11,565 nucleotides of DNA, taken from positions 1 through 11,565 of the forward strand of contig JAGVWE010000001.1 of assembly GCA_018304425.1 (NCBI GenBank). The letters are read 5' to 3'. Made by a program: the position numbers and the translations under genes. Below the pieces are notes generated by a model. The model saw only the letters and a list, made by a program, of their open reading frames with translations. It was not told where the DNA came from and ran no database searches. Positions 1 through 11,160 of this stretch are shown piece after piece. Positions within the stretch are counted from its first letter, which is position 1. Every line of letters starts with the position of its first letter. The stretch comes from Candidatus Iainarchaeum sp. GTDB taxonomy: Archaea > Iainarchaeota > Iainarchaeia > Iainarchaeales > UBA10219.

Positions 1-684
1 GCGGACAGGCTGCAGGTCGCGGCTCCATCGACGGGCCTGGCCATCCTGCCGACACAGGCACCGGAGCCAAGCGGCAACCAGCCCGAAGCGGCGCCGCCAG
101 CGGCTGCCCCCACCGGCCCGGAAATGAAGGGCTTGTTAAAGGACCCGGCCGGCAAAATGGGCCAGGACAACGCACCAGTAGTCTTCGTCGAGTACTCGGA
201 CTTCCAGTGCCCGTTCTGCGGGAGATGGTACAAGGACTCGGCAGCCCAGCTGAAAAGGGATTACGTTGACACCGGGAAAGTGCTGTTCCTGTACAAGGAC
301 TTTCCCCTGAGCTTCCACCCCAACGCCGGCCCAGCCGCCAACGCGGCGAGGTGCGCGGCCGAGCAAGGCAAGTTCTGGGAATTCCACGACAAGGTCTTTG
401 AAAACCAGGAAGCCCTGTCGGCCGACAACTACAAGAAGTGGGCCAAGGAACTGAAGCTCAACGCGGGCCAGTTCGACTCCTGCTTTGCTGGCAGCAAGTA
501 CAACAACCTCGTGCAGGCCAACTTCAGCGAGGGCTCGCGGTACGGCGTTTCCGGGACCCCGAGCTTCCTCGTGGGCAAGGCCGGCGGAAAAGCACAGCTC
601 GGGCCGCAAGGCTCCTATCCTTCCATCGTGGGCGCCATGCCGTACAGCGAGTTCAAGGACGCCATCGATGCGTTGCTGAAATAA
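1..684 (+). CDS. DsbA-like extracytoplasmic thiol oxidoreductase, 5' partial
   Basis: The frame is open from base 1, so the true start lies upstream and 227 codons are visible. The first ~40 codons are a Pro/Ala-rich linker, probably joining an unseen membrane anchor or signal peptide to the catalytic domain. The domain has the redox motif DFQCPFCGRWY (Cys at window codons 70 and 73) and a cis-proline loop GVSGTPSFLVG (Pro at codon 187). Two further cysteines (codons 118 and 161) could form a structural disulfide. This matches the thioredoxin_4/DsbA-like family, which makes or isomerises disulfides outside the membrane. An ATG at 124 lies in frame but is probably internal, because the linker reads through it. 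It converges on the CcdA gene 21 bases away, a plausible functional partner. Family is secure; oxidase versus isomerase direction is not. Confidence 0.9.
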   Translation, partial: ADRLQVAAPSTGLAILPTQAPEPSGNQPEAAPPAAAPTGPEMKGLLKDPAGKMGQDNAPVVFVEYSDFQCPFCGRWYKDSAAQLKRDYVDTGKVLFLYKDFPLSFHPNAGPAANAARCAAEQGKFWEFHDKVFENQEALSADNYKKWAKELKLNAGQFDSCFAGSKYNNLVQANFSEGSRYGVSGTPSFLVGKAGGKAQLGPQGSYPSIVGAMPYSEFKDAIDALLK

Positions 685-693
685 GCCTGGTTG

Positions 694-714
694 GGGCTCA
701 ACGCCCTATCTTTT
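694..714 (+). terminator. possible weak terminator after the DsbA-like gene
   Basis: GGGC (694-697) and GCCC (703-706) can form a four-base-pair stem with a five-base loop, followed by TATCTTTT. It lies in the short convergent gap and overlaps the 3' end of the opposite CcdA gene. The stem is short, so this is tentative. Confidence 0.3.
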
Positions 715-1569
715 CACCAGCCAGTCGTTCAGGTCAGCCCATAGCCGCATGTCCCAGGGAGTGAACTCCTGGATGGCCTCCATGAAGGGAGTCGTGCCCC
801 CATAGGAGGCGATGGTCCAGCCGATGGCCAACAGGAACAAGCCCGCGACCAGGTTGTAGGGGCTGAGGCTGAGTTGCCTGCCAAACAGGTTCAGGGAAAA
901 CGGGGTGTTGACGGCGGCCACCATTTTTTGGAATCCTTTCCGTTCCGCCACCAGCGAGGCAGCCACCAGGGGCAGGACGACGCCGGCCGAGAAGGCGAGG
1001 AGCAGCAGGGCGCCCCAGGCCGGGCTGGCCATGCCGCCGGCCGCGAGCAGGATGCCGGCCAAGACCGCACCCATGCAGGGCGTCCAGCCAATGCCGAAAA
1101 GGGCGCCCAAGAAGAACATCGAGGCCAGGCCGCCGCTTGCCTTGACGAAGTGCTGCTGGAGCGTGGGCAGGTTTTTTCCCGCCAGCAGCCAGAGGCCCGC
1201 GAATGCCAGCAGGACTCCCGATACCAGGGCGAAAGGCTGCCGGTAGGCATTGAAGAGGGTGCCGAGGCTGCCGGCGACGAAGCCGAACACCGTGAAAGTG
1301 GCCATGAGGCCCAGGCCGAATAGGAGGCTGGCCTGGAAGGCCTTCTTCCGGGTGAAGGCCACGGTGAAAAACAGGGGCAGCAGGACGAAGCCGCAGGGCG
1401 AGAGAAAAGAGATTAAGCCGCCAAGGAAGGCGCCCAACAGGGTGACGCTCTGCATGAGCTGCTGGTTGTATTCAACGATTCTTTGGAGGCCGATTGGGAG
1501 CTCCTGGGCGAGCACGGGAACCGCGAGGAAGGAGAGGAAAACCAGCCAGACAAGCAATCGGGGAGGCAT
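706..1569 (-). CDS. CcdA/DsbD-type transmembrane thiol-disulfide carrier
   Basis: This 287-residue membrane protein would pass electrons from cytoplasmic thioredoxin across the membrane to extracytoplasmic thiol proteins. The signature cysteines are both visible: SPCGF (Cys59) and TPCMG (Cys165), each at the start of a hydrophobic helix and each after a proline, as in the CcdA family. An N-terminal signal-like stretch (PPRLLVWLVFLSFLAVPVLA) is followed by about six further helices, more than a minimal CcdA. I start it at 1569 because the signal peptide begins there and the upstream gene stops 14 bases earlier. The longer frame to 1653 would add 28 unlikely residues and overlap that gene by about 70 bases. 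It is third in the leftward operon after the repressor and peptidase. Likely partners are the DsbA-like protein and the thioredoxin-repeat protein. Confidence 0.88.
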   Translation of the reverse strand: MPPRLLVWLVFLSFLAVPVLAQELPIGLQRIVEYNQQLMQSVTLLGAFLGGLISFLSPCGFVLLPLFFTVAFTRKKAFQASLLFGLGLMATFTVFGFVAGSLGTLFNAYRQPFALVSGVLLAFAGLWLLAGKNLPTLQQHFVKASGGLASMFFLGALFGIGWTPCMGAVLAGILLAAGGMASPAWGALLLLAFSAGVVLPLVAASLVAERKGFQKMVAAVNTPFSLNLFGRQLSLSPYNLVAGLFLLAIGWTIASYGGTTPFMEAIQEFTPWDMRLWADLNDWLVKR

Positions 1570-1582
1570 GGAAACGCCTGGC

Positions 1583-2359
1583 CTATGAGAACCCGCAACG
1601 GGTTTCCCGGTCAAAGGAGTGGAAGGCGTCAAACTTTTTCTTGGCCGAGGCAAGGTGCCGGCCCGTGCCCTGGACCTGGACGGCGAACCGGTCTGCCTTC
1701 AGTTCCTCGTTTTCGAGGTCGGCCCTGATTTCATTGAAGGAAAAGACCGGCACCAGCCGTTTCACGAGCAGCGAGGAGAACTTGAACAACTGGTTGGAGT
1801 TCTTCAGGTGGCTGAGCTCGTGCAAGAGCACCGCCTCGGCTTCCTTCTTCGTCAGGAGCTCCAGGAGGCCGACCGAGACGAAGATGGTGGGCTGGAGGCC
1901 GGCCGTGGAAAAGGCGACCGGTTTTTGGTCGTCGACGAGCAGCACCTTCGGCTGGCGCATCCCGAGCCGGGAGGAGTAAAGGGAAACCATTCCGGCGATT
2001 TCTCCGTCTCCCAGTTCCCGCGCCTTCAGCATCCGGCGGTAGAGGAGGGGCGAGACCAAGTAACCCAGGACGATGGAGCCAAGCAAGGCGATGGGCAGCG
2101 CCTTGAAAACGGTTTTGGCCTGGCATGCCAGCATGCCGGCGCAGGGCACCGAAAGCGTGAAATAGACGAGGGGAAAGAGCACCGAGAAGAAGGTGGTGTA
2201 AATCCAGGCAGTCTTCTTTCGAACACTCAAATCGCTTCGCTTCAACTGGAGCAGCGCCACCACGGCGAGGAACAGGGCGCCAAGCGTGACCATCAGGCCA
2301 TCCCGGCTCTGGAGGAAGCCCAGCAGGCAGGTTCCCACCATGCAACCCATGTCAAACAT
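1583..2359 (-). CDS. membrane zinc metallopeptidase (M48/M56-like), possible BlaR1-type signal protease
   Basis: A 258-residue membrane peptidase. HELSH at residues 180-184 supplies two zinc ligands and the catalytic Glu181. EELKAD (219-223) fits the downstream Glu ligand and the Asp of M48-type enzymes. Hydrophobic helices lie at about 21-39, 52-70 and 88-107, before the catalytic domain, and 'LLVKRLVPVFSF' follows HELSH. The ATG follows the repressor's TGA directly (TGAATG), with GGGAGG at 2374-2369 nine bases upstream. A BlaI-family repressor next to such a peptidase is the BlaR1/BlaI and MecR1/MecI arrangement, in which the peptidase transmits a surface signal that removes the repressor. 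No C-terminal penicillin-binding sensor domain is present. Cysteines at 6, 11, 73 and 79, near the membrane, could sense redox or metal; this is inference. A housekeeping HtpX-like role is the alternative. Confidence 0.85.
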   Translation of the reverse strand: MFDMGCMVGTCLLGFLQSRDGLMVTLGALFLAVVALLQLKRSDLSVRKKTAWIYTTFFSVLFPLVYFTLSVPCAGMLACQAKTVFKALPIALLGSIVLGYLVSPLLYRRMLKARELGDGEIAGMVSLYSSRLGMRQPKVLLVDDQKPVAFSTAGLQPTIFVSVGLLELLTKKEAEAVLLHELSHLKNSNQLFKFSSLLVKRLVPVFSFNEIRADLENEELKADRFAVQVQGTGRHLASAKKKFDAFHSFDRETRCGFS

Positions 2360-2722
2360 TCACGCATGCCTCCCGAAGCGTTCGTTGAAGTAAGTGGTGG
2401 CCGTTGACCCAAACCGCTGAATCAGCTTGTTGACCGCGCTCTCCAGCATGTGCTCCTTGAACTTGGAGGGGGAGCCTGAGGCGAAGTAAATGTAGCGGTA
2501 GCCACCCCGGCAGGACTCGACCTTCCGCTCAACCAGGCCCTTCGAGTACAGCCGGTCGAGGATGACCGCGACGCTCGTCAAGGCGACTTTCCGCTTCCGC
2601 TTGACGAGTTTATGGGCTTCCTTGGTGCGCATGCCGTTCCCCCTGACCAGTACGTCAAGAACCACGGCCTCCAGGGGGCTAAGCGCAGCTTTTAATTCTT
2701 GACGTATCTCAATTACCTTCAT
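2360..2722 (-). CDS. BlaI/MecI/CopY-family winged-helix repressor
   Basis: A 120-residue DNA-binding protein. Residues ~15-80 form the winged helix: LSPLEAVVLDVL, then a recognition region around VALTSVAVILDRLYSKGLVERK, then the wing CRGGYRYIY. These follow the BlaI/MecI/CopY pattern closely. The C-terminal ~40 residues should form the dimerisation helices. It lacks the CxC pairs of copper-binding CopY and has one cysteine, Cys71, at the wing. The ATG at 2722 is preferred over the adjacent TTG at 2725 because a TATA box lies about 28 bases upstream, implying a leaderless or near-leaderless transcript. TACA/TGTA half-sites, the motif this family recognises, lie just beyond that TATA box. It probably represses both its own leftward operon and the divergent ten-gene operon. 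Function in the family is well established; the inducer here is unknown. Confidence 0.88.
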   Translation of the reverse strand: MKVIEIRQELKAALSPLEAVVLDVLVRGNGMRTKEAHKLVKRKRKVALTSVAVILDRLYSKGLVERKVESCRGGYRYIYFASGSPSKFKEHMLESAVNKLIQRFGSTATTYFNERFGRHA

Positions 2723-2746
2723 CAATAAGGGGATGGGAAGTAAGGC

Positions 2747-2753
2747 TTAAAAA
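2747..2753 (-). promoter_or_regulatory. TATA box of the leftward repressor operon
   Basis: TTTTTAA on the minus strand is centred about 28 bases before the repressor's ATG. That spacing fits archaeal transcription starting at or next to the start codon. A very similar box precedes the multicopper oxidase gene at the same spacing. Confidence 0.6.
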
Positions 2754-2762
2754 CATAACCGA

Positions 2763-2770
2763 TTATACAA
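2763..2770 (+). promoter_or_regulatory. possible TATA box of the rightward ten-gene operon
   Basis: TTATACAA would place transcription start near 2793, giving a short leader before the GTG at 2806. Its last bases overlap the first TACA half-site, so repressor binding would block TBP/TFB. It matches the other TATA boxes here less well. Confidence 0.4.
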
Positions 2771-2796
2771 GTTGTAACATTTACAAGCATTTGTAA
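2766..2796. promoter_or_regulatory. probable operator: four alternating TACA/TGTA half-sites
   Basis: Half-sites occur at TACA 2766-2769, TGTA 2773-2776, TACA 2782-2785 and TGTA 2792-2795. They make three inverted repeats: TACAAGTTGTA (2766-2776), TTGTAACATTTACAA (2772-2786) and TTACAAGCATTTGTAA (2781-2796). BlaI, MecI and CopY are known to recognise TACA/TGTA dyads. The array lies between the divergent start codons and overlaps the presumed rightward promoter. Spacers here are 3, 5 and 6 bases between the tetramers, not the two of the classical cop box, so the exact dimer-binding unit is uncertain. Confidence 0.7.
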
Positions 2797-2805
2797 TGGT
2801 ATGGA

Positions 2806-3543
2806 GTGGGAAACTTGAAGGAATCAGCTGAGACCCGGTTCTTCCTGGGCACCAAAAAAGGCTTTTACGCCCTCGTCATCATCACGGCGTTCATGCTGTT
2901 GAACAACATCCTGGCCACCACCCTGTTCGCGCAAGCCATTCAGGCAACTGCGGCCGGGGCCGGCGCCGGGCCCGCGGTCGTCGACGTCGGCAGCGGCTTG
3001 AATTATGGCCCGAAGACCACGCTCAAGCCCATGCCGTTGGCGCAGGACGAGCAGCCCACCTTCCAGGGCTTCAGGACCAGGGTAAAAGCCCTGCCCACCA
3101 TCAGCGAACTCGCCATCGCCCCCTCCAGCAGTGATTTAGTCCAGGACCTGGTCAACAACATCATCCCCACCGGCGTACCATGGTATAGCGACGAAGCCGG
3201 GGGAGTCACTTTTGACGACCCCATTTACGCGCAGCAGACTTGGGGCCCCTACGAGGAAACCATCCAGTTGAGCGGCGAAGACGAACAACGGTGGAGCACC
3301 ATCGTGAACTCGTTCACCTGCGATTATTGTTGTGGTTCCCCGCAGCAGCCCACCATCATCACGCGGTGCGGCTGCGCGCATGCGAAGGCCGCGCGGGGCA
3401 TGGCCAAGTGGTTCATCCAGAATCATGGCGATGAATTCTCGGACGAGGAAATCTACGGCGAAATGGCGCGATGGTACGCCCTGTGGTATCCGGGGCCCAC
3501 CGTCAAGCGGCTCGCCGAAGAAATAACCGGAACGCTATCATGA
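2806..3543 (+). CDS. membrane-anchored protein with CxxCC...CGCAH cysteine cluster
   Basis: First gene of the rightward operon, 245 residues, no secure family name. Residues ~18-46 form one hydrophobic anchor, followed by an Ala/Gly-rich linker and a probably extracytoplasmic domain. The C-terminal part holds the striking cluster: Cys172, Cys175, Cys176, then Cys188, Cys190 and His192 (TCDYCCGSP and RCGCAHAKAARGM). A helical segment follows (KWFIQNHGDEFSDEEIYGEM), then WYALWYPG. The layout recalls PCYCGC-motif proteins, suggesting a soft-metal or redox site; this is a resemblance only. The start is unusual: GTG at 2806 is the most upstream option after a stop at 2794. A TTG at 2815 with GGAG eight bases upstream is an alternative. 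Downstream neighbours are all thiol- or metal-like envelope proteins. Confidence 0.8.
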   Translation: MGNLKESAETRFFLGTKKGFYALVIITAFMLLNNILATTLFAQAIQATAAGAGAGPAVVDVGSGLNYGPKTTLKPMPLAQDEQPTFQGFRTRVKALPTISELAIAPSSSDLVQDLVNNIIPTGVPWYSDEAGGVTFDDPIYAQQTWGPYEETIQLSGEDEQRWSTIVNSFTCDYCCGSPQQPTIITRCGCAHAKAARGMAKWFIQNHGDEFSDEEIYGEMARWYALWYPGPTVKRLAEEITGTLS

Positions 3544-3555
3544 TGATTAAACACA

Positions 3556-3561
3556 GGGAGG
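3556..3561 (+). promoter_or_regulatory. strong ribosome binding site fixing the start at 3570
   Basis: GGGAGG lies eight bases before ATG 3570. It argues against the in-frame ATGs at 3540 and 3543, which overlap the preceding stop codon and would add ten charged residues before the membrane segment. Confidence 0.7.
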
Positions 3562-3569
3562 CAAAAAAA

Positions 3570-3794
3570 ATGGACAAGACAATGATCCTCACCATTCTGG
3601 TGGGAGCCATGGTATTGGTTTCGGCCCTGCAAACCATTCAATTGTTTGGGCTGAGCAACGCGCTGTCCGGCGCACAGGTTGGCGGAGGCTCGCTGAGCGC
3701 GGCGAAAGCCCCGGCAACCACGGCCAAGGCGCCCGTTGCGGTCAGCGGGGGCACGAGCCTAAAGAACCTGCCCAGCATGGTTGGCGGGTGTTAG
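3570..3794 (+). CDS. 74-residue membrane-anchored peptide ending in MVGGC
   Basis: I do not recognise a named family. The product has three parts: a hydrophobic anchor at residues ~5-27, with MILTILVGAMVLVSALQTIQ at its core; a flexible Ala/Lys/Pro/Thr/Gly linker (~34-62); and a C-terminal end, SLKNLPSMVGGC, whose only cysteine is the very last residue. The tail would project outside the membrane. A lone terminal cysteine after Gly-Gly could be a metal ligand, a disulfide or persulfide acceptor, or a point of covalent attachment or cleavage; all of these are inference. It sits between the Cys-cluster protein and the triple-thioredoxin protein, so a substrate or partner role with them is attractive. 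The start is set by a strong ribosome site at 3556-3561. Its coding reality is supported by that site, the operon spacing and the membrane anchor. Confidence 0.78.
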   Translation: MDKTMILTILVGAMVLVSALQTIQLFGLSNALSGAQVGGGSLSAAKAPATTAKAPVAVSGGTSLKNLPSMVGGC

Positions 3795-3835
3795 GCCGGC
3801 AAGGAGCCAAGAGCCAGGGAAAGGATTGACAGGCA

Positions 3836-4987
3836 ATGACCAATGCAGGGAAACTCAAGCGGAACGCGTTGACGGTGTTGTTCGTGTTGCTGGTGGGGAT
3901 TAGCCTCCTCAACACCCTCCAATTGATGAACATCACGGGCAAGCTCACCGAAAAGGTGGTGGAAGCAAAAGAGCTGGCGCGGCCGGCCAAGATAGAGGTA
4001 ACCCTGCTTGTTTCAGGGGCTTGCAGCGCAAGTGACTGCTATGACATCGGCTTGTCCCTGGATGCCTTGAAGCAACAGAACGTGGAAGTCACGAAGGAAC
4101 AGACCCTCGCGCTGGAGTCAGCCGAAGGAAAGGCCCTGGCGGAAGCCAGTGGCGTCCAACGGCTGCCAGCCCTGGTCGTGTCCGTGGAACCGAAAAAGGC
4201 GGAACAACTGAAGAACTACTGGAAGCGCGTGAACGCCGTTGAACCCGCAGAAGGCAAGGCCGTTGTCCAGCCACCGGTGCCGCCCTACTTTGACCTCGCC
4301 CAGGGAAAAGTGGCGGGACTGGTAAAGCTCGTCTCGCTGACGGATGACGCCTGCACGCAATGCCTCAAATTGGATGACGTTGCCGCAATCCTCGAGGGAG
4401 CCGGGATAAAAATCGTGGACAAACAAGTGCAGGCCTATGATTCCCCCGAAGGAAAGGCATCCATTGAAGGGTTCGGCGTGACCCGGATTCCGGCCCTCCT
4501 CCTCTCCAAGGACGTAATGGTTTACGAGGGCATGGCCGAGCAGTTGAAGGCCCTGAACTCGGTTGAAAAAAACGGCTATTACGCCGTCCACTCCACTATT
4601 CCGCCTTACCGCGAGGTTGCCAGCAACCAGGTCAAGGGCCTGGTGGAAGTCATTTACCTGACGGACGAGTCCTGCAAGGAATGCTTTGACGTCCAGGTGA
4701 ACAAGCAAGTCCTCCAACGGTTTGGCTTGGTCTTTGCGAGCGAGAAGACCGTTGACATTGCGTCAAAGGAAGGCAAGGAACTCGTGAACCGCTACAACCT
4801 GACAAAGGTTCCGGCCTTTCTGATGTCCGGTGAGGCCAAGGAATACGCTTCCCTCAACAGCGTGTGGAAACAGGTGGGCACGGTCGAGGGCAGCGGCTGG
4901 TATGTTTTCAGGAAGCCCGAAGTGTTCGGTGCCTACAAGGACCTGGAGAAAAAATTGGTGGTCACGCCGCAGCAGGGCGGCCAGTAA
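3836..4987 (+). CDS. membrane-anchored triple thioredoxin-like repeat protein
   Basis: A 383-residue protein with an N-terminal anchor (~11-31) and three tandem thioredoxin-like units of about 107 residues. Each unit has a Cys pair and later a cis-proline loop. Unit 1 has Cys63 and Cys68 (CSASDC) with Pro111 in RLPALVVS. Unit 2 has CTQC (173-176) with Pro219 in RIPALLLS. Unit 3 has CKEC (280-283) with Pro326 in KVPAFLMS. Each unit also carries an EGK after the second strand, and units 2 and 3 are introduced by PPY...V.GLV. Unit 1 has four residues between its cysteines instead of two, so its redox chemistry may differ. It is probably extracytoplasmic and may exchange disulfides with its neighbours or be recharged by the CcdA protein. 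The ribosome site is weak (AGGAT at 3822-3826). Fold is inferred from motifs. Confidence 0.85.
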   Translation: MTNAGKLKRNALTVLFVLLVGISLLNTLQLMNITGKLTEKVVEAKELARPAKIEVTLLVSGACSASDCYDIGLSLDALKQQNVEVTKEQTLALESAEGKALAEASGVQRLPALVVSVEPKKAEQLKNYWKRVNAVEPAEGKAVVQPPVPPYFDLAQGKVAGLVKLVSLTDDACTQCLKLDDVAAILEGAGIKIVDKQVQAYDSPEGKASIEGFGVTRIPALLLSKDVMVYEGMAEQLKALNSVEKNGYYAVHSTIPPYREVASNQVKGLVEVIYLTDESCKECFDVQVNKQVLQRFGLVFASEKTVDIASKEGKELVNRYNLTKVPAFLMSGEAKEYASLNSVWKQVGTVEGSGWYVFRKPEVFGAYKDLEKKLVVTPQQGGQ

Positions 4988-5010
4988 GAGTCCAGCCACT
5001 GCCATTGTTT

Positions 5011-5016
5011 GGGGAG
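5011..5016 (+). promoter_or_regulatory. ribosome binding site fixing the start at 5021
   Basis: GGGGAG ends four bases before ATG 5021. The in-frame TTG at 5009 would put the start upstream of this site and is unlikely. Confidence 0.6.
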
Positions 5017-5020
5017 CGAA

Positions 5021-5794
5021 ATGAGCGAAAAAGAAGGATGGGTGCTCTACGGCTTCGTGGTTTTCGCGGTCGTGGCGCTGGGAATCGGCTTGCTGGCTTT
5101 GGCCAACATCCTGGGTCTGAACCAAGCGAGCCCGGACGATGAAAGTCAAGCCACGCAGGAGCGGGACGAGGCCATGGGCCGGTTGACCATGACGTCCTTT
5201 GACCGGGATATGGCCCTGAAACTCATGGACAAGGACTCCGATGGCAAATGCGATGCCTGCGGCATGCCGGTCGAGATGTGCATCGAGTCCGGCCAGCTGG
5301 AATGCAACATGGGACCGGATGGCGCGTCCAAGATGGGGTTGCTGAACTCCCAGCACGTCCACGCGGACTGGAAGGTTTACGTCAACGGAAAGGCGCTCGA
5401 CTTGTCGGACAAAACCCATGGAGGACGCATGCAGGCCGGGCTTCCCGTGAGCAGTTTCATGCACGTCGACGAAGGCGCGCCAGCGCCTGAACTGCCGGGC
5501 GACGTCCTGCACATGCACGCCAAGAACGTGCCCCTCTGGCTGTGGTTCGAAAGCCTGGGCATGGAGTTCTCCAGGGACTGCCTGGAACTGAGCGCAACCC
5601 CCAAGTTGGGGGCAGGCGAAAAATACTGCAACGGCAACGGAAAGACCCTGAAGTTCTACGTGAACGGCCAGCCCAACGATGGATTCGAGAAATACGTGTT
5701 CAGGGACGGGGACAAGCTGCTGATTTCCTACGGGGATGAAACGGACTTGTCAGCGCAACTGGGTTCCATTACTAGCTTCGGTGGACGCCATTGA
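5021..5794 (+). CDS. membrane-anchored protein with Ca-loop-like CxxCGM motif and His-x-His domain
   Basis: A 257-residue protein with one anchor (~7-33). Residues 70-82 read DKDSDGKCDACGM, which combines an EF-hand-like Asp/Gly loop with a CxxC and is followed by Cys87 and Cys95. The rest is a His-rich domain: HVH (112-114), His133, MHVD (His148), HMH (164-166), with Cys187 and Cys203. It ends in a VNG...DGDKLLISYGDE strand region (~213-240). The same plan recurs in the product at 7595-8173: an initial HxH, a central His strand, a G-M/V-x-F helix end, then VNG-P...EKYV..DGDK. The two are therefore paralogues. Paired histidines and cysteines outside the membrane suggest soft-metal binding, possibly copper; this is inference. 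I know of similar unnamed proteins in small-genome archaea but cannot name a characterised member. Confidence 0.82.
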   Translation: MSEKEGWVLYGFVVFAVVALGIGLLALANILGLNQASPDDESQATQERDEAMGRLTMTSFDRDMALKLMDKDSDGKCDACGMPVEMCIESGQLECNMGPDGASKMGLLNSQHVHADWKVYVNGKALDLSDKTHGGRMQAGLPVSSFMHVDEGAPAPELPGDVLHMHAKNVPLWLWFESLGMEFSRDCLELSATPKLGAGEKYCNGNGKTLKFYVNGQPNDGFEKYVFRDGDKLLISYGDETDLSAQLGSITSFGGRH

Positions 5795-5802
5795 GGGAAC
5801 GC

Positions 5803-6210
5803 ATGGACGCAAAAACGAGGATTGAAAGCTTTGTCAGCTCCGCTTCGGGGGCATTGGCAACCATTGGCTCGAGCTGGCAGGTCTGCCACAACATCTGCCT
5901 GGCGGCATTGGCCTTGCTGGCCTCCATCGGCATTGTCATAACCGGGATGCCGCTGCTTTTCCTGTTCGAATACAACCTTTATTTCTGGGGGGCCGCCGTG
6001 CTGTTGCTGGCGCTGACGCTCACCATGTTTCTCAGGAACCCGGCCTGTGGCTCGAAAAACGTCTTGGCGTTCAACGTGGGTGTGGTCATCGCCGGAACTC
6101 CTGGCCAATTCCTCGGAGGCTTTCAGCCCCTGTTCTGGGGGGTTGGAGGCGTTATTGCGTTGACGGGAATCGTGGGCTGGTGGCTGAAGCGGAAAAAGGG
6201 AGAAAAATGA
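5803..6210 (+). CDS. four-helix membrane protein with CHNIC motif
   Basis: A 135-residue, almost wholly hydrophobic protein with helices at about 30-47, 50-57/59-77, 87-104 and 108-127. Cysteines 28 and 32 (VCHNIC) lie just before or at the first helix, and Cys82 (NPACGSK) is in the middle loop. The tail is short and basic (KRKKGEK). Small size, four helices and paired Cys near the first helix are reminiscent of Mer-type transport proteins or small thiol carriers. There is no convincing motif match, so I leave the function open. The ATG at 5803 is chosen over a TTG at 5791 because GAGGGA lies at 5793-5798. It begins eight bases after the previous stop, and its own stop overlaps the next ATG, consistent with translational coupling. 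Confidence 0.78.
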   Translation: MDAKTRIESFVSSASGALATIGSSWQVCHNICLAALALLASIGIVITGMPLLFLFEYNLYFWGAAVLLLALTLTMFLRNPACGSKNVLAFNVGVVIAGTPGQFLGGFQPLFWGVGGVIALTGIVGWWLKRKKGEK

Positions 6211-6611
6211 ACTGGCCAGCATGGGCTTTGATTTCGTTGGTTGCGGGCGTGCTCCTCGCGGGATGCGTAGCCGGCGAAGGCAAGCCGGCTGCCGGGAGAG
6301 GAGAAACAGGCTTGAAGACGCTGTCCGTCGAAGAATTAAGGCAAGGGCTTGAAAACAAGGACTTTTTCCTGGTGGACGTGCACGTCCCCGAACAGGAACA
6401 CTTCCCGCAAACCGATGCATTCATTCCCTATGATGCGATTGAGTCAAACCTGGGGAGCCTCCCAAAGGACAAGAACGCCAAGATTGTGCTGTATTGCAGG
6501 ACCGACCGAATGAGCGGAATCGCGGGAGAAAAACTAGTGCGCTTGGGGTACACCAACGTCTACCATGTCGTGGGCGGAAAAGTGGCCTGGGACGGGATGG
6601 CCAGCGACTAG
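6207..6611 (+). CDS. rhodanese-domain lipoprotein
   Basis: A 134-residue protein. Residues 1-20 are a signal peptide ending in the lipobox LAGC (Cys20), so it should be lipid-anchored outside the cell. A short linker leads to a rhodanese fold: LSVEELRQGL (39-48), FFLVDVHVPEQEHF (53-66), then KIVLYCRTDRMSGIAGEKL (92-110) with the catalytic Cys97 at the start of the six-residue active loop. The end is YHVVGGKVAWDGM. Rhodaneses carry sulfur as a persulfide or relay it to acceptors. The usual CDV.R/E signature is here VDVHVPEQEH. The start is set by AGGGAG (6197-6202) and the ATGA overlap with the preceding gene; an in-frame ATG at 6180 lies within that gene. Extracytoplasmic location beside thioredoxin-like proteins suggests sulfur or persulfide exchange at the surface. 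Substrate is unknown. Confidence 0.9.
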   Translation: MNWPAWALISLVAGVLLAGCVAGEGKPAAGRGETGLKTLSVEELRQGLENKDFFLVDVHVPEQEHFPQTDAFIPYDAIESNLGSLPKDKNAKIVLYCRTDRMSGIAGEKLVRLGYTNVYHVVGGKVAWDGMASD

Positions 6612-6624
6612 GCAGGGGAAAGGC

Positions 6625-7131
6625 ATGCGTTCACAAGCGAACACGGTTTGGCTGGCGGCAAAGGAAGTCCTTTCCCACACGAAGTACCTGTGGCTCTTTG
6701 TTTTGGCCAGCACGTTCTTCGCCCTCCTGTTCATTGTCTACCCCGTGCTCGCCACGCCGGGCAACGACCTGGCTTTCCAGTTGTCGATTACGCCTTGGTG
6801 GGGCCTGCTGTTAATCGGTTTCCTCGCGTTCGCTTCCGGGCTCCTGGTCACCCTACAGGCCTACATCTTCAGAAGGCTCAAGGCCCTGCCCGTAAAGGAA
6901 ACCGGGACAACGCTTGTCGGGGGGGCTTCGGCTTTCCTTGCCAACGTCTTCGCCTCGGCTTCCTGCACGGCCTGCGTTTCGGCCCTTTTCTCCTTTCTCG
7001 GCATCGGCACCATCATTTTCCTGTTGAATTACCGCTGGGAAATCGTGGGCGGCAGCATCGTGCTGACGCTTCTTGCCATTTACTTCGCATCCAAACGCAT
7101 CAACAACCATTGCATGGAATGCGGGGTTTGA
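6625..7131 (+). CDS. membrane protein with intramembrane CxxC and C-terminal CxxC (paralogue 1)
   Basis: A 168-residue protein with helices at about 22-43, 58-79, 97-133 (probably two) and 140-156. A CxxC (SCTAC, Cys114 and Cys117) lies inside the third hydrophobic region. A second CxxC (HCMEC, Cys163 and Cys166) sits at the very C-terminus, three residues from the end. The next gene repeats this plan, so the two are probably diverged duplicates. Cys pairs within a helix plus a tail pair would suit a thiol-electron relay or a soft-metal transporter such as the Mer type; this is inference, and no named family is recognised. The ATG at 6625 is chosen because GGGGA and AGG lie just before it and it follows the previous stop by 13 bases. 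An in-frame ATG at 6565 lies within that gene. Confidence 0.8.
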   Translation: MRSQANTVWLAAKEVLSHTKYLWLFVLASTFFALLFIVYPVLATPGNDLAFQLSITPWWGLLLIGFLAFASGLLVTLQAYIFRRLKALPVKETGTTLVGGASAFLANVFASASCTACVSALFSFLGIGTIIFLLNYRWEIVGGSIVLTLLAIYFASKRINNHCMECGV

Positions 7132-7141
7132 GGGAACGAAA

Positions 7142-7594
7142 ATGAAAGACGTCGTCAAGTGGTTCACGAGGATGGGCGTGGTTCCGCGGGCACTGATTAT
7201 TGGGTTGACGATGTTCGTGGCCTTCGGCGTGCCAACCGCCCTGGTGCCGTTGCCCCTGATTGCCTACAAGCGCATGATTCCCGCGACCGTTCTGGACTAT
7301 TTGCTGCTGGCCGCGGTTTCGGGCCTCGTGGGCCTCTACGCTTCCTATCGCCTGCGAAAAAACGCGCCTGAAAAAGGCGGCGACATGAAGGCGTTTGGGG
7401 CAACGATTGCCGGGCTATTCTCGTTCGCTTGCCCCATCTGCAGCGTGCTGCTGGTCTCCTTGCTGGGCAGCGCCTTTGTTTTGACTTACTTCGAGCCGGT
7501 ACGGCATCCGCTGGGTGTCGCAGCCGTCGGCGCATTGGTTTACCTGGTTTACGTGGAAAGAAAAAATTGCAGGGCCTGCAAGGAAGGGAATTGA
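7142..7594 (+). CDS. membrane protein with intramembrane CxxC and C-terminal CxxC (paralogue 2)
   Basis: A 150-residue protein with helices at about 17-40, 50-68, 85-116 and 123-138. ACPIC (Cys97 and Cys100) lies inside the third hydrophobic region and NCRAC (Cys143 and Cys146) near the C-terminus. The order and spacing match the preceding gene, including the small-residue segment before the intramembrane CxxC and the LGxxxxF segment after it. The two products may form a heteromeric membrane unit. GAGGGA (7130-7135) six bases upstream fixes the start at 7142. The stop is followed at once by the next ATG (TGAATG). Function is unknown; thiol relay or metal transport are the leading ideas. Confidence 0.8.
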   Translation: MKDVVKWFTRMGVVPRALIIGLTMFVAFGVPTALVPLPLIAYKRMIPATVLDYLLLAAVSGLVGLYASYRLRKNAPEKGGDMKAFGATIAGLFSFACPICSVLLVSLLGSAFVLTYFEPVRHPLGVAAVGALVYLVYVERKNCRACKEGN

Positions 7595-8173
7595 ATGGAC
7601 GAAGCAAGCGAAGAATTAGTGGCGGAATTGACCAAGAAACAAAAGAAGAACCTCGAAAAAAAACGGAGGCAGAAAGAGGAACAAGCAGTGGAACAGAAAA
7701 AAGCCGGGGCGGAAAAACTGAAAAAGACGGCCCTGGCCTCCCTGGCCCTGGTGGCCGGCGCTTTCCTCGTTTACTTCGTTGCCATGGCCCCCAAAGTGGA
7801 GGGGCCCTACACGCCCGGCCCCGTGCACTGGCATTCGACCCTTTCCATGACCGCATGCGGCCAACCCATTCCCTTGCCCCGCGCCCCGCCGGGCAGGATG
7901 CTGGGGCCCGAAATAAGGCACCTCCACGACAACGATGACAAGATCCACATCGAGGCACAGGTCCAGCGAAAGGAGGACATCATGGTGGAAGCCTTCCTGG
8001 CGGACATCGGCGTGGCGTTCAACGAAAAACAACTGGGAAACTATGGCGAGGGAAACCAGTGCCCGAATGGAAAAGCCGGCAAGGTCGCATTCACCGTCAA
8101 CGGCAAGCCAAGCACGGAATACGAGAAGTACGTGATGCAGGACGGCGACAAAATCGAGATACGGTTTGAATAA
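7595..8173 (+). CDS. membrane-anchored His-x-His domain protein
   Basis: A 192-residue protein. The first ~44 residues are strongly charged (Lys/Glu/Gln-rich, probably a cytoplasmic helix or coiled coil). A single membrane helix follows (~45-64), then an extracytoplasmic domain. That domain carries HWH (78-80), Cys88, HLHDNDDKIHIE (His109, His111, His118), Cys156, and ends in VNGKPSTEYEKYVMQDGDKI. It shares its plan with the product of the fourth operon gene, as paralogues, but lacks that protein's CGM motif and has an opposite-style charged N-terminus. Metal binding through the His pairs is plausible, and the C-terminal strand pattern hints at a small beta fold. Start codon and preceding stop are contiguous, and AAGGGA lies just upstream. 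Related unnamed proteins occur widely in small-genome microbes to my knowledge. Confidence 0.82.
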   Translation: MDEASEELVAELTKKQKKNLEKKRRQKEEQAVEQKKAGAEKLKKTALASLALVAGAFLVYFVAMAPKVEGPYTPGPVHWHSTLSMTACGQPIPLPRAPPGRMLGPEIRHLHDNDDKIHIEAQVQRKEDIMVEAFLADIGVAFNEKQLGNYGEGNQCPNGKAGKVAFTVNGKPSTEYEKYVMQDGDKIEIRFE

Positions 8174-8185
8174 TTGCGAGTATGC

Positions 8186-8192
8186 GGAGGGG
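8186..8192 (+). promoter_or_regulatory. ribosome binding site fixing the start at 8198
   Basis: GGAGGGG lies five bases before ATG 8198. It rules against the in-frame TTG at 8174, and the protein then begins directly with its lipoprotein signal. Confidence 0.7.
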
Positions 8193-8197
8193 TAATC

Positions 8198-8683
8198 ATG
8201 GGGAGCAAAATAATCTGGATCGGATTAGTGGCGCTGGCCCTGGTGTTGAGCGGCTGCGCGCAGGCGGAACAAAAACAACAGGCAGTGGCTGGCCCACAGC
8301 AGGGCTACGACCTCCATGTGGACGCCAAGCACTGGCTGAAAGACAAACGGGAAACGGTTCACCACTGGTGCAAGCCCACCAAGGAAAAGCTGTTTGAGTG
8401 CCTGTTGTTTGACTCGGATGCGGCCAACGCCAACATCGTGGGAACGGAAGTCATCGTGGAGAACGGCGTCTGGGAAACCTTTGACGACGAGGAAAAAGGC
8501 CGCTGGCATGACCATAAAACCGAAATCGTGGAAGCAGAGGCCACTCTGCCGGGCATGCCGGAGGCCGAGGCCCAAAAATGGGTCGAAGCCCTGATGCAGA
8601 CCCATGGACGCGTGATTTACTTCTGGAACTACCCGAGGGACGCCTATCCCATTGGCCGGCCTTTCATGGACTCCGACCACTAG
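8198..8683 (+). CDS. DUF1264/OBAP-like lipoprotein
   Basis: Last gene of the rightward operon, 161 residues. Residues 1-20 are a signal peptide ending in LSGC (Cys20), so the mature protein should be lipid-anchored outside. The body matches the pattern I know from DUF1264, the family that includes plant oil-body-associated proteins: HHWC (His55, His56, Cys58), CLLFDSD...NANIVGTEVIV (68-87), FDDEEKGRWHDHKTEI with His104 and His106 (95-110), and HGRVIYFWNYPRDAYPIGRP (136-155). The conserved His/Cys positions suggest a metal or substrate site, but no biochemical role is established for the family that I can cite. Its presence as a lipoprotein in a thiol/metal envelope operon is informative context. 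A hairpin and T-tract follow immediately. Confidence 0.85.
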   Translation: MGSKIIWIGLVALALVLSGCAQAEQKQQAVAGPQQGYDLHVDAKHWLKDKRETVHHWCKPTKEKLFECLLFDSDAANANIVGTEVIVENGVWETFDDEEKGRWHDHKTEIVEAEATLPGMPEAEAQKWVEALMQTHGRVIYFWNYPRDAYPIGRPFMDSDH

Positions 8684-8740: not shown

Positions 8741-9559
8741 ATGCGCGTCCTCAAGGCCAATGGGGAATCAGAGGAATTCGACGCCGAAAAGGTGCGGCGG
8801 GCCTGCCTCCGGGCCGGGGCCTCCGACCGGATGGCCGAAGAAATCACGCAAAGCGTGCGGGCGCGGGCCTATGACGGCATCCCCACCCATGAAATCTATG
8901 CCATGGCCTACAAGCTGCTCAAGCAAGCCAAGACCGGGGCCGAGCACCGGTTCAGCTTGAAGAAGGCCATGATGGAGTTGGGCCCGGAAGGACACGCCTT
9001 CGAGGACTTCGTTGCCCGCGTGTTCCAGGCAAACGGCTACCAGGCGCGCACGCGGCAAATCGTGAAAGGGAAATGCGTCTCCCACGAAGTGGACGTGGTC
9101 GCGGAAAACGCCGGGGAAAAAGTCCTGGTGGAATGCAAGTTCCACCACCGGCCGGGCATTGAGTGCCACGTGCAAAACCCGTTGTACGTGTGGGCGCGGT
9201 TCCAGGACGTGGTCGAGGGCGCGAAATCAAATGGGGAACGGCCGTTCACGCAGGCCTGGCTTGCGACCAACACGAGGTTGAGCTCGGACGCGGTTGCCTA
9301 CGCGGAATGCGTGGGGTTGAAGGTCCTGGGCTGGAAATATCCTTCCGTCAACGGCCTGGAAGCCCTGATTGAGCAAAAGCGATTGTATCCGGTCACGGTG
9401 TTGACGGGCCTCACTTCCCACGAAAAGGACCGGCTGGTGGGAGCGGACATCCTGTTGTTAAGGGAACTCGTGCAAGCCAACGCCGCGGGCCTGGCCGCGA
9501 AAACCGGCCTGCCCGCACCCCGAATAGAGGGCCTTAAAGCCCAAGTCCACTGGTTATAG
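8741..9559 (+). CDS. ATP-cone / PD-(D/E)XK nuclease-like fusion protein
   Basis: A 272-residue protein. Residues ~1-78 form an ATP-cone, the nucleotide-sensing domain of NrdR and ribonucleotide reductases: MRVLKANGESEEFDAEKVRRAC, then THEIYAMAYKLLK. Residues ~84-205 look like an Mrr-type PD-(D/E)XK fold: AFEDFVARVFQANGY (86-100), EVDVV with Asp118, and VLVECK with Glu131 and Lys133 as the catalytic pair. The C-terminal ~60 residues (LTSHEKDRLVGADILLLREL, then LAAKTGL) look like helix-hairpin-helix DNA-binding repeats. Such fusions are known from archaeal genomes but, to my knowledge, not characterised. A nucleotide-gated DNA nuclease for repair or defence is plausible. It is transcribed separately from the operon before it, and the multicopper oxidase gene converges on it. 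The start has no ribosome site. Confidence 0.85.
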   Translation: MRVLKANGESEEFDAEKVRRACLRAGASDRMAEEITQSVRARAYDGIPTHEIYAMAYKLLKQAKTGAEHRFSLKKAMMELGPEGHAFEDFVARVFQANGYQARTRQIVKGKCVSHEVDVVAENAGEKVLVECKFHHRPGIECHVQNPLYVWARFQDVVEGAKSNGERPFTQAWLATNTRLSSDAVAYAECVGLKVLGWKYPSVNGLEALIEQKRLYPVTVLTGLTSHEKDRLVGADILLLRELVQANAAGLAAKTGLPAPRIEGLKAQVHWL

Positions 9560-9624: not shown

Positions 9625-11121
9625 TCAGGGCCTTACCTCTAGCAGGGCCATCATGCCGGACTCCAGGTGCTCGGGGATGTGGCAGTGCAGCATCCATTGG
9701 CCCGGGTTGGAGAAGTCGACGAGCAGGTCCACGGTGCTGCCGGCGGGAACCAGGACCGAGTCCTTCCAGGCCAGGTTGTCGTTCGGTTTTCCGTCCACGC
9801 TGGCCACGAGGAAGCGGTTGCCATGCAAGTGGAGGGGGTGCTGCATGGGATGCGCGGAAGTGGCGAGGTTGTGGATGCGGATTTTTTGGATGCTGCCCGC
9901 CCTGGCTTCAAATCGCACGTCCATGTTTTCTTTGCCGGTTTTCCTGTCGCGCAGGATCCATTTCGTGTTCTCGGGAGTTGAAGCGGAGTTCATGGCGGCC
10001 ATCCTGCCTTCCTCCCACTCGATGGGTTCGGGGGCTCCGCCCAGGGCGTGCGGCGTCATGTCCATGCCCTGCATTTCAACGTCGAGTTCCAGTTCGAGGT
10101 CAGGTTGCTGGTCCAGCAAGGCCTTGAAGGGGGCCAGGGAAGACTGCAGGACCGGGTTGGCATGGGGGGAAGAAAAATCGGTGGCAGGGGTTGGCGCGGA
10201 CGCAGCCTCGACTTCGAGGACGCCCAGGGTGTAAGAGGCGTCGGGCGTGGCGTTGAGTAACTTGAAGGAACCGGCTTTTTCGAGGGCCAGCTCCACGATG
10301 GCGCGCTCCGAGGGCCCGAGGACCACGCCCTCGACCAGGGCTTCGCGTTCGGGTTTGCCGGAATCCAGGCCCACGAGTTTCAGGGGATGGCCTTCGACCG
10401 TGAAATGGAAGGGCCGCGCGTTGGCCGCGTTGACGAGGTAAAACCGCAGGGTTTGGCCTTTCCCAGCCTTCAGGCGGTAGTTGTTTTGCCAGTTGACGAA
10501 CAGGGTGTTGCCATAGCGGCCCATCAAGGCATGCGTGGCCTGGTCCTCGTTGAAACCGGCCATGCCTCCCGGCTCGAGGAGGAGGTCGTCCAAGAACAGG
10601 ACTTCCTCACGGTCGACTGGGTTGTAGTAGACTGGGTCTCGGGGTTCCACGAGGATGGCGCCATACAAGCCGAGCTCCTGTTGCCGGTCTTCGCGTAGGT
10701 GCGGGTGGTACCAGTAGATGCCTTCGTCCGGGAAAGAGAGTTCGTAGCGGAAGGTTTCGCCTGGCTTGACTGGCTCCTGTGTAACGCCTGGCACGCCGTC
10801 AAAGGCATGGGCGACTCTCACGCCGTGCCAGTGCACGGTCGTGTCGTATGGCAAGCTGTTCCGAAAATCAATGGAAACCCGGCTACCCTGTCTCACCTTG
10901 AGGAGCGGCCCGGGCAGCATGCCGTTGTAGGCGTAGAGGGTCTCCGGTTTGCCGGCCATGGTTTGGGTGACGGCGGACGCGGTAAGGGAGTAGACGGAGC
11001 CATCTGCGAGGTCAATGGCTTGCATGGGCCTGGCATCCGGGGCCTGCCTGGCGACGCAGCCGGCGGCAAGCGAGAACAGGAACAGCAGGACCAGAACGCG
11101 GTCACCATGCACACAGGGCAT
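9625..11121 (-). CDS. multicopper oxidase lipoprotein (laccase/CueO-like)
   Basis: A 498-residue three-domain copper oxidase that would oxidise a substrate one electron at a time and reduce O2 to water. All copper motifs are present: HWHG (97-100), YHPH (His139 and His141), HPLHLHG (His428, His431, His433) and HCHIPEHLESGM (His479, Cys480, His481, His485, axial Met490). The N-terminus is a signal peptide with lipobox AAGC (Cys22), so it is anchored outside. Met residues cluster in MQGMDMTPH (~351-358), which might favour Cu(I) or metal substrates as in CueO. I start at ATG 11121 because a TATA box (11145-11152) lies about 27 bases upstream. The longer frame to a TTG at 11160 would run through that box. 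Natural substrate, Cu(I) or phenolic, is not determinable. Confidence 0.93.
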   Translation of the reverse strand: MPCVHGDRVLVLLFLFSLAAGCVARQAPDARPMQAIDLADGSVYSLTASAVTQTMAGKPETLYAYNGMLPGPLLKVRQGSRVSIDFRNSLPYDTTVHWHGVRVAHAFDGVPGVTQEPVKPGETFRYELSFPDEGIYWYHPHLREDRQQELGLYGAILVEPRDPVYYNPVDREEVLFLDDLLLEPGGMAGFNEDQATHALMGRYGNTLFVNWQNNYRLKAGKGQTLRFYLVNAANARPFHFTVEGHPLKLVGLDSGKPEREALVEGVVLGPSERAIVELALEKAGSFKLLNATPDASYTLGVLEVEAASAPTPATDFSSPHANPVLQSSLAPFKALLDQQPDLELELDVEMQGMDMTPHALGGAPEPIEWEEGRMAAMNSASTPENTKWILRDRKTGKENMDVRFEARAGSIQKIRIHNLATSAHPMQHPLHLHGNRFLVASVDGKPNDNLAWKDSVLVPAGSTVDLLVDFSNPGQWMLHCHIPEHLESGMMALLEVRP

Positions 11122-11144
11122 GCAGGGAGTAGGAGGGAAAACCA

Positions 11145-11152
11145 TTAAAAAT
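11145..11152 (-). promoter_or_regulatory. TATA box of the multicopper oxidase gene
   Basis: ATTTTTAA on the minus strand is centred about 27 bases before ATG 11121, with no ribosome site between. This fits a leaderless archaeal transcript and closely resembles the repressor promoter at 2747-2753. Confidence 0.6.
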
Positions 11153-11160
11153 TGCAGCAA

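Follow-up and report, generated by a model that had tools for sequence, protein, structure and literature searches.

Organization of the island

Comparative analysis of the window, by which we mean the whole 11,565-base contig analyzed here, indicates that its host probably carries an inducible cell-envelope defense against thiophilic metals (Cu+ and Ag+, with Hg2+ in some relatives). The apparently new elements are a family of anchored Cys-rich proteins, A, and small membrane tethers ending in MVGGC, a tail that in this phylum is found only at A/B loci; the type of switch that controls them is already known, its closest precedent being the cyanobacterial PetR/PetP pair. The host belongs to the Iainarchaeota (Diapherotrites) and has a genome of 1.48 Mb that is 92.6% complete. 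The GC content of the window (59.2%) is in line with the remainder of that genome, and misbinning of the contig was rejected on the basis of tetranucleotide correlations (0.727 between window and host versus 0.722 within the host and 0.33-0.64 against other genomes).

Three genes, encoding a CcdA-type carrier, a membrane peptidase, and a BlaI-family repressor, run leftward from a common regulatory region (2726-2805), and ten tightly spaced genes, A to J, run rightward from it (2806-8683; intergene spacing of -4 to +41 bases). The original prediction had described this arrangement as a BlaI repressor, an HELSH peptidase, and CcdA facing a ten-gene operon across a common operator region, and its coordinates and features hold. 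Its further statement, that nearly all operon products are anchored, secreted, or membrane-embedded and carry paired cysteines or His-x-His, agrees with a predicted transmembrane (TM) helix or lipobox in all ten products and with motifs that can be read directly.

Regulatory genes and putative operators

The repressor (2360-2725, minus strand) is a 121-residue protein with a single Cys that matches PF03965 at 41.4 bits (cut-off 22.6). Next to it lies an M48/M56-type membrane peptidase of 258 residues (1583-2359, minus strand) with HELSH at residue 180, which scores 37.9 bits against PF01435, above the cut-off, and 29.1 bits against PF05569 (M56), slightly below the Pfam cut-off of 31. The CcdA-type membrane electron carrier (706-1569, or alternatively to 1653, minus strand) matches DsbD_TM (PF02683) at 50.1 bits. 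An alignment of 22 peptidase homologues, together with topology prediction, places three TM helices ahead of HELSH. The TM1-TM2 loop is basic while the N-terminus and the TM2-TM3 loop are not; by the positive-inside rule, the cysteines found in the latter two segments are therefore predicted to lie outside the membrane and the HExxH site inside. Each homologue has Cys in the N-terminus, the TM2-TM3 loop, or both, with three peptidases (two of them distinct) lacking the loop Cys and carrying Cys only N-terminally.

The region between blaI and A contains two operator-like palindromes, TACAAGTTGTA (2766-2776) and TTACAAGCATTTGTAA (2781-2796), the second being the sole exact copy in the host genome. 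Putative operators of the form TACA-n3-6-TGTA occurred in 10 of 15 BlaI/A intergenic regions (14 sites in total), compared with an average of 0.27 loci expected from dinucleotide shuffles and a maximum of three loci in 2000 shuffles; across whole loci their density was 0.07 per kb. These counts support the earlier proposal that a BlaI-peptidase pair has its operator in common with an envelope Cys/His operon. Loci without BlaI often have, next to A, a membrane helix-turn-helix (HTH) protein unrelated to BlaI. Of 29 such proteins, 28 carry at least two cysteines in an external TM1-TM2 loop, and the 29th is a fragment. Since two unrelated regulators display the same external Cys feature, sensing outside the membrane is suggested.

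The switch resembles several known systems. CopY, a member of the same BlaI/CopY superfamily, recognizes a TACAnnTGTA-like operator; however, the archaeal repressor lacks the CxCxxxxCxC metal motif and scores 20.3 bits against TIGR02698, whose cut-off is 121.95. With BlaR1/BlaI and MecR1/MecI the island has in common a BlaI-family repressor, a putative membrane zinc peptidase whose HExxH is predicted to be cytoplasmic, and palindromic TACA/TGTA operator-like sites. It differs from them in that the archaeal peptidase ends about 75 residues past HELSH, with no C-terminal extracellular penicillin-binding sensor domain detected, and in that beta-lactamase and penicillin-binding protein genes do not accompany it. 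The original prediction knew of no described system with this gene set, which is too strong for the switch itself, since in Synechocystis PetR, a BlaI-family regulator, is paired with PetP, a BlaR1-family protease, and copper-dependent proteolysis has been proposed as the means of copper sensing (PMC7896320). Both systems combine a BlaI-family regulator with a neighboring membrane metalloprotease, but PetR/PetP switches plastocyanin and cytochrome c6, whereas the archaeal pair faces a multi-gene Cys/His envelope operon. The predicted external Cys pair of the archaeal peptidase may be a further difference. A plasmid of Pseudonocardia autotrophica (L206, 998-4528) encodes BlaI, an M56 peptidase, DsbA, CcdA, and a relative of protein H in a single operon; it offers weak support because it has no TACA/TGTA operator and its M56 protein no Cys pair.

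Proteins A and B

Protein A (2806-3543, plus strand) is an anchored protein with the motif CDYCC...CGCAH. Its start is ambiguous, either GTG at 2806 or TTG at 2815, the TTG having the better-placed GGAG. In an alignment of 51 sequences, C172, C175, C176, C188, C190, and H192 were invariant. None of the 51 members matched a Pfam family, including PF03918 (CcmH) at an E-value of 0.1, and A had no sequence relative in the PDB; PF13798 (PCYCGC), considered for the likeness of its motif, also failed to match. A structural model of A (pLDDT 90.8) aligned best with the periplasmic domain of CcmH, 2hl7 (Z of 6.4 over 71 residues; next best 3.9), and the CcmH profile aligned with A in register (P of 0.002; score of 17.9, against a maximum of 11.2 in 199 column shuffles), while Foldseek with the full model returned nothing significant. 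These structural and profile values, both moderate, suggest that the core of A is CcmH-like, i.e., a three-helix CxxC domain. Such a core would be common to A and CcmH/NrfF, but A has additional cysteines (CxxCC, CGC) and a His, and cytochrome c assembly genes do not accompany it.

Protein B (3570-3794, plus strand) is a small membrane-anchored protein with a terminal MVGGC. Family comparison showed a GGC ending in all 35 members, MVGGC in nearly all, and little else in common apart from an N-terminal TM helix. Searching the 87 genomes of the phylum for the codons of MVGGC followed by TAA or TGA gave 34 matches in 18 genomes, each no farther than about 650 bases from an A gene, and the reversed pattern gave none in the same genomes. 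This short C-terminal tail is a candidate metal or thiol tether. In the window it is present on B and absent from A. The host has a second A-B pair on another contig (L125; C1 339000-357500, at about 350 kb), in which both A and B end in MVGGC and which is accompanied by a membrane HTH protein, a DsbD-like fusion, a YHS-type fragment, and, 4 kb from the pair, an 833-residue Cu-type ATPase. Selenocysteine was considered for this second A, given one TGA, and rejected because the TGA lies upstream of the start.

Proteins C to J and the flanking DsbA and multicopper oxidase

Downstream of B, protein C (3836-4987, plus strand) is anchored and has three thioredoxin folds with CSASDC, CTQC, and CKEC; thioredoxin Pfam families were matched by most members, and C itself matches archaeal protein disulfide oxidoreductases in the PDB. 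Protein D (5021-5794, plus strand) is an anchored His/Cys protein with CDACG and HxH, seen in its alignment to comprise the segment DKDGDGKCDACGM and a beta-grasp domain, for which a model (pLDDT 83.5) matched the transcobalamin type with a Z of about 6. This domain, with a conserved His, is common to D and to protein I (7595-8173, plus strand), an anchored His-rich protein with HWH that is homologous to the C-terminal domain of D. Protein E (5803-6210, plus strand; 18 homologues) is a membrane protein with a CHNIC motif (QVCHNxCL), F (6207-6611, plus strand) a rhodanese lipoprotein with its Cys in YCRTDR (PF00581, 40.2 bits), and J (8198-8683, plus strand) a DUF1264 lipoprotein (PF06884, 86.4 bits). 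Proteins G (6625-7131, plus strand; CTAC and CMEC) and H (7142-7594, plus strand; CPIC and CRAC) align with each other as 4-TM proteins, and by eye they bear a likeness to MerT. Plasmid-borne relatives of H have heavy-metal ATPase genes or sulfur genes as neighbors.

To the left, a DsbA-like thioredoxin gene (1-684, plus strand; CPFC; PF13462, 114.7 bits) has lost its 5' end at the contig edge. To the right, beyond the 706-8683 interval of the original prediction, lies a multicopper oxidase gene (9625-11160, minus strand) with PF07732, PF07731, and PF00394 domains and PDB matches to laccase and CueO. In other Iainarchaeota the oxidase is grouped with G, H, I, and DsbA (L014, L016, and L018), and homologues of the DsbA-like protein adjoin the oxidase, G, H, and I.

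Conservation of the island

A profile of A detected members in 19 of the 87 genomes of the phylum, and 129 related stretches were found in the genome collection. The closest relatives of the A locus (46-68% identity by region) occur outside the host phylum, in Aenigmatarchaeota, Woesearchaeota, and Pacearchaeota bins that are mostly groundwater-derived, and in the tree of A the window's protein is the sole iainarchaeote within a 27-row clade (support 100/100). Horizontal acquisition is likely. Relatives of A also appear in records titled as bacterial (Parcubacteria, Kerfeldbacteria, Microgenomatus, and others; L091, L096, L105, L106, and L119), some of them near P-type ATPases.

For 26 related loci, most of them from Aenigmatarchaeota, Woesearchaeota, and Pacearchaeota, we counted the genes lying no more than 12 kb from A: B was present in 22, C in 21, D/I in 20, and E in 18, along with BlaI in 14, the peptidase in 12, the membrane HTH regulator in 11, and CcdA in 8, all of these being lower bounds, since many loci end at contig edges. 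On the same terms F was found in three, G in one, and J and the multicopper oxidase in none; counts of H are unreliable because some automatic open reading frames were extended over A. An NTF2-like anchored protein of ~160 residues follows C in 19 of the 26 relatives (L041-L066) and is missing from the window. Other iainarchaeotes (L014, L015, L016, and L018) have a cluster similar to F to J, the multicopper oxidase, and DsbA. Taken together, the neighbor counts and this resemblance indicate that the window is a mosaic, a widespread, recurrent core of A to E with its regulator having been joined to a lineage-specific copper-type cluster, F to J plus the oxidase. Thus, where the original prediction expected the neighboring genes to be conserved together, A to E and the regulator are indeed kept together, but the ten genes do not form one set.

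Metal-resistance genes in related islands

Neither a mercuric reductase (MerA) nor a metal ATPase is encoded in the window, and the host genome has no MerA over the curated cut-off. Among the 26 relatives, MerA exceeded the cut-off in five genomes and lay inside the island in three of these, between D and E in two (L042 and L047) and after E in the third (L055). The island MerA proteins scored 500-568 bits against the curated cut-off of 454, and those between D and E have the GTCVNVGC motif and a C-terminal CC. A heavy-metal ATPase lay within 12 kb of A in four of the 26; that occupying the D-E slot of one island (L041) has CPC, YN, and MxxSS motifs and scored best as a Cu type. Within the available stretches, 19 of the 26 relatives had neither gene. 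Counted over the whole set, islands of the sister 'As' subtype of A include DUF411 at 27 loci and a P-type ATPase at 29. The DUF411 protein of these islands matches a solved structure, 6wis, that of the copper protein CopG.

These neighbors agree with the soft-metal role that had been proposed from the window. MerA, a Cu+-ATPase, and DUF411/CopG-type proteins or a multicopper oxidase among the wider island family recall the bacterial mer and cop/cue operons, but the regulators of the islands are not MerR or CueR, and we know of no counterpart of A, B, D, or E in those operons.

A model for the island and its alternatives

The soft-metal reading rests on MerA and heavy-metal ATPases in related islands, DUF411 and P-type ATPases in the sister islands, the Cu-type ATPase near the second A-B pair of the host, the multicopper oxidase in the window, the recurrent operator motifs, the predicted external cysteines and internal HExxH of the peptidase, the external cysteines of the HTH proteins, and the PetR/PetP precedent. 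We infer the following order of events, electron path, and cargo. A soft metal would bind the Cys pairs of the peptidase outside the membrane, upon which its cytoplasmic HELSH site would cleave BlaI; loss of BlaI would free the operators at 2766-2796 and switch on A to J and probably the regulator genes too. CcdA would supply the thioredoxin protein C and the CcmH-like A with electrons moving outward, and the cysteines of A, B (the MVGGC tethers), and D would thereby stay reduced and able to bind metal and hand it on. G and H may move metal or thiol electrons within the membrane, and the multicopper oxidase may oxidize Cu(I). The choice among copper, silver, and mercury is likewise read from gene content.

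Several other functions could be served by such a gene set. The original prediction had left open a thiol or a metal role, and our results narrow this toward metal while leaving one sulfur-based explanation live, namely a persulfide or sulfide system in which the Cys pairs serve as sensors of external sulfur species, with rhodanese F, CcdA, the thioredoxins, and H handling them. F adjoins G and H, and relatives of H on Streptomyces, Haladaptatus, and Haloprofundus plasmids occur in sulfur clusters that include a rhodanese, TauE, YeeE, or an MBL-fold hydrolase; however, relatives of H in Rhodococcus, Rubrobacter, and Halocatena have copper genes next to them, F is present in just three of the 26 core relatives, and MerA and copper ATPases would be foreign to a system of this kind, which we consider unlikely. 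Regulated folding or repair of envelope disulfides, with the metal genes as neighbors needing folded partners, would account for DsbA, CcdA, the CcmH-like A, and the relation of C to archaeal protein disulfide oxidoreductases. We judge it improbable, as it gives no reason for MerA to occupy a slot in the operon, for A to have its Cys5His set, for D and I to be rich in His, or for the MVGGC tethers to exist. Cytochrome c maturation, with A acting as CcmH and CcdA as its electron supplier, would fit the core of A and the presence of CcdA, but the host genome, at its 92.6% completeness, has no PF01578 assembly protein and PF03918 is absent from 53 related genomes; on these grounds it was rejected as very improbable.

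Returning to metal defense, a more specific and more tentative possibility is that these loci form a hitherto undescribed family of DPANN metal-defense islands whose Cys5His protein, derived from CcmH, cooperates with MVGGC membrane tethers that catch soft metals outside the cell or pass them on. Control would rest with one of two membrane regulators, unrelated to each other but each sensing metal by means of external Cys pairs. A literature search, which was not exhaustive, found no paper describing such an island. If the soft-metal reading holds, metal control of the protease-released, BlaI type would be known from archaea as well, and A, B, E, and H, which had no Pfam match here, would gain a function in small-genome DPANN archaea.

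Other genes in the window

Two further genes lie outside the operon. At the contig end (11398-11565) a small Cys-rich protein (CxxC...CxxxC) has only weak treble-clef matches. Between J and the multicopper oxidase (8741-9559) is a gene for a protein with an ATP-cone and an Mrr-type nuclease domain (PF03477 and PF04471, with an AF1548-like C-terminus), which is probably unrelated to the A-J operon.
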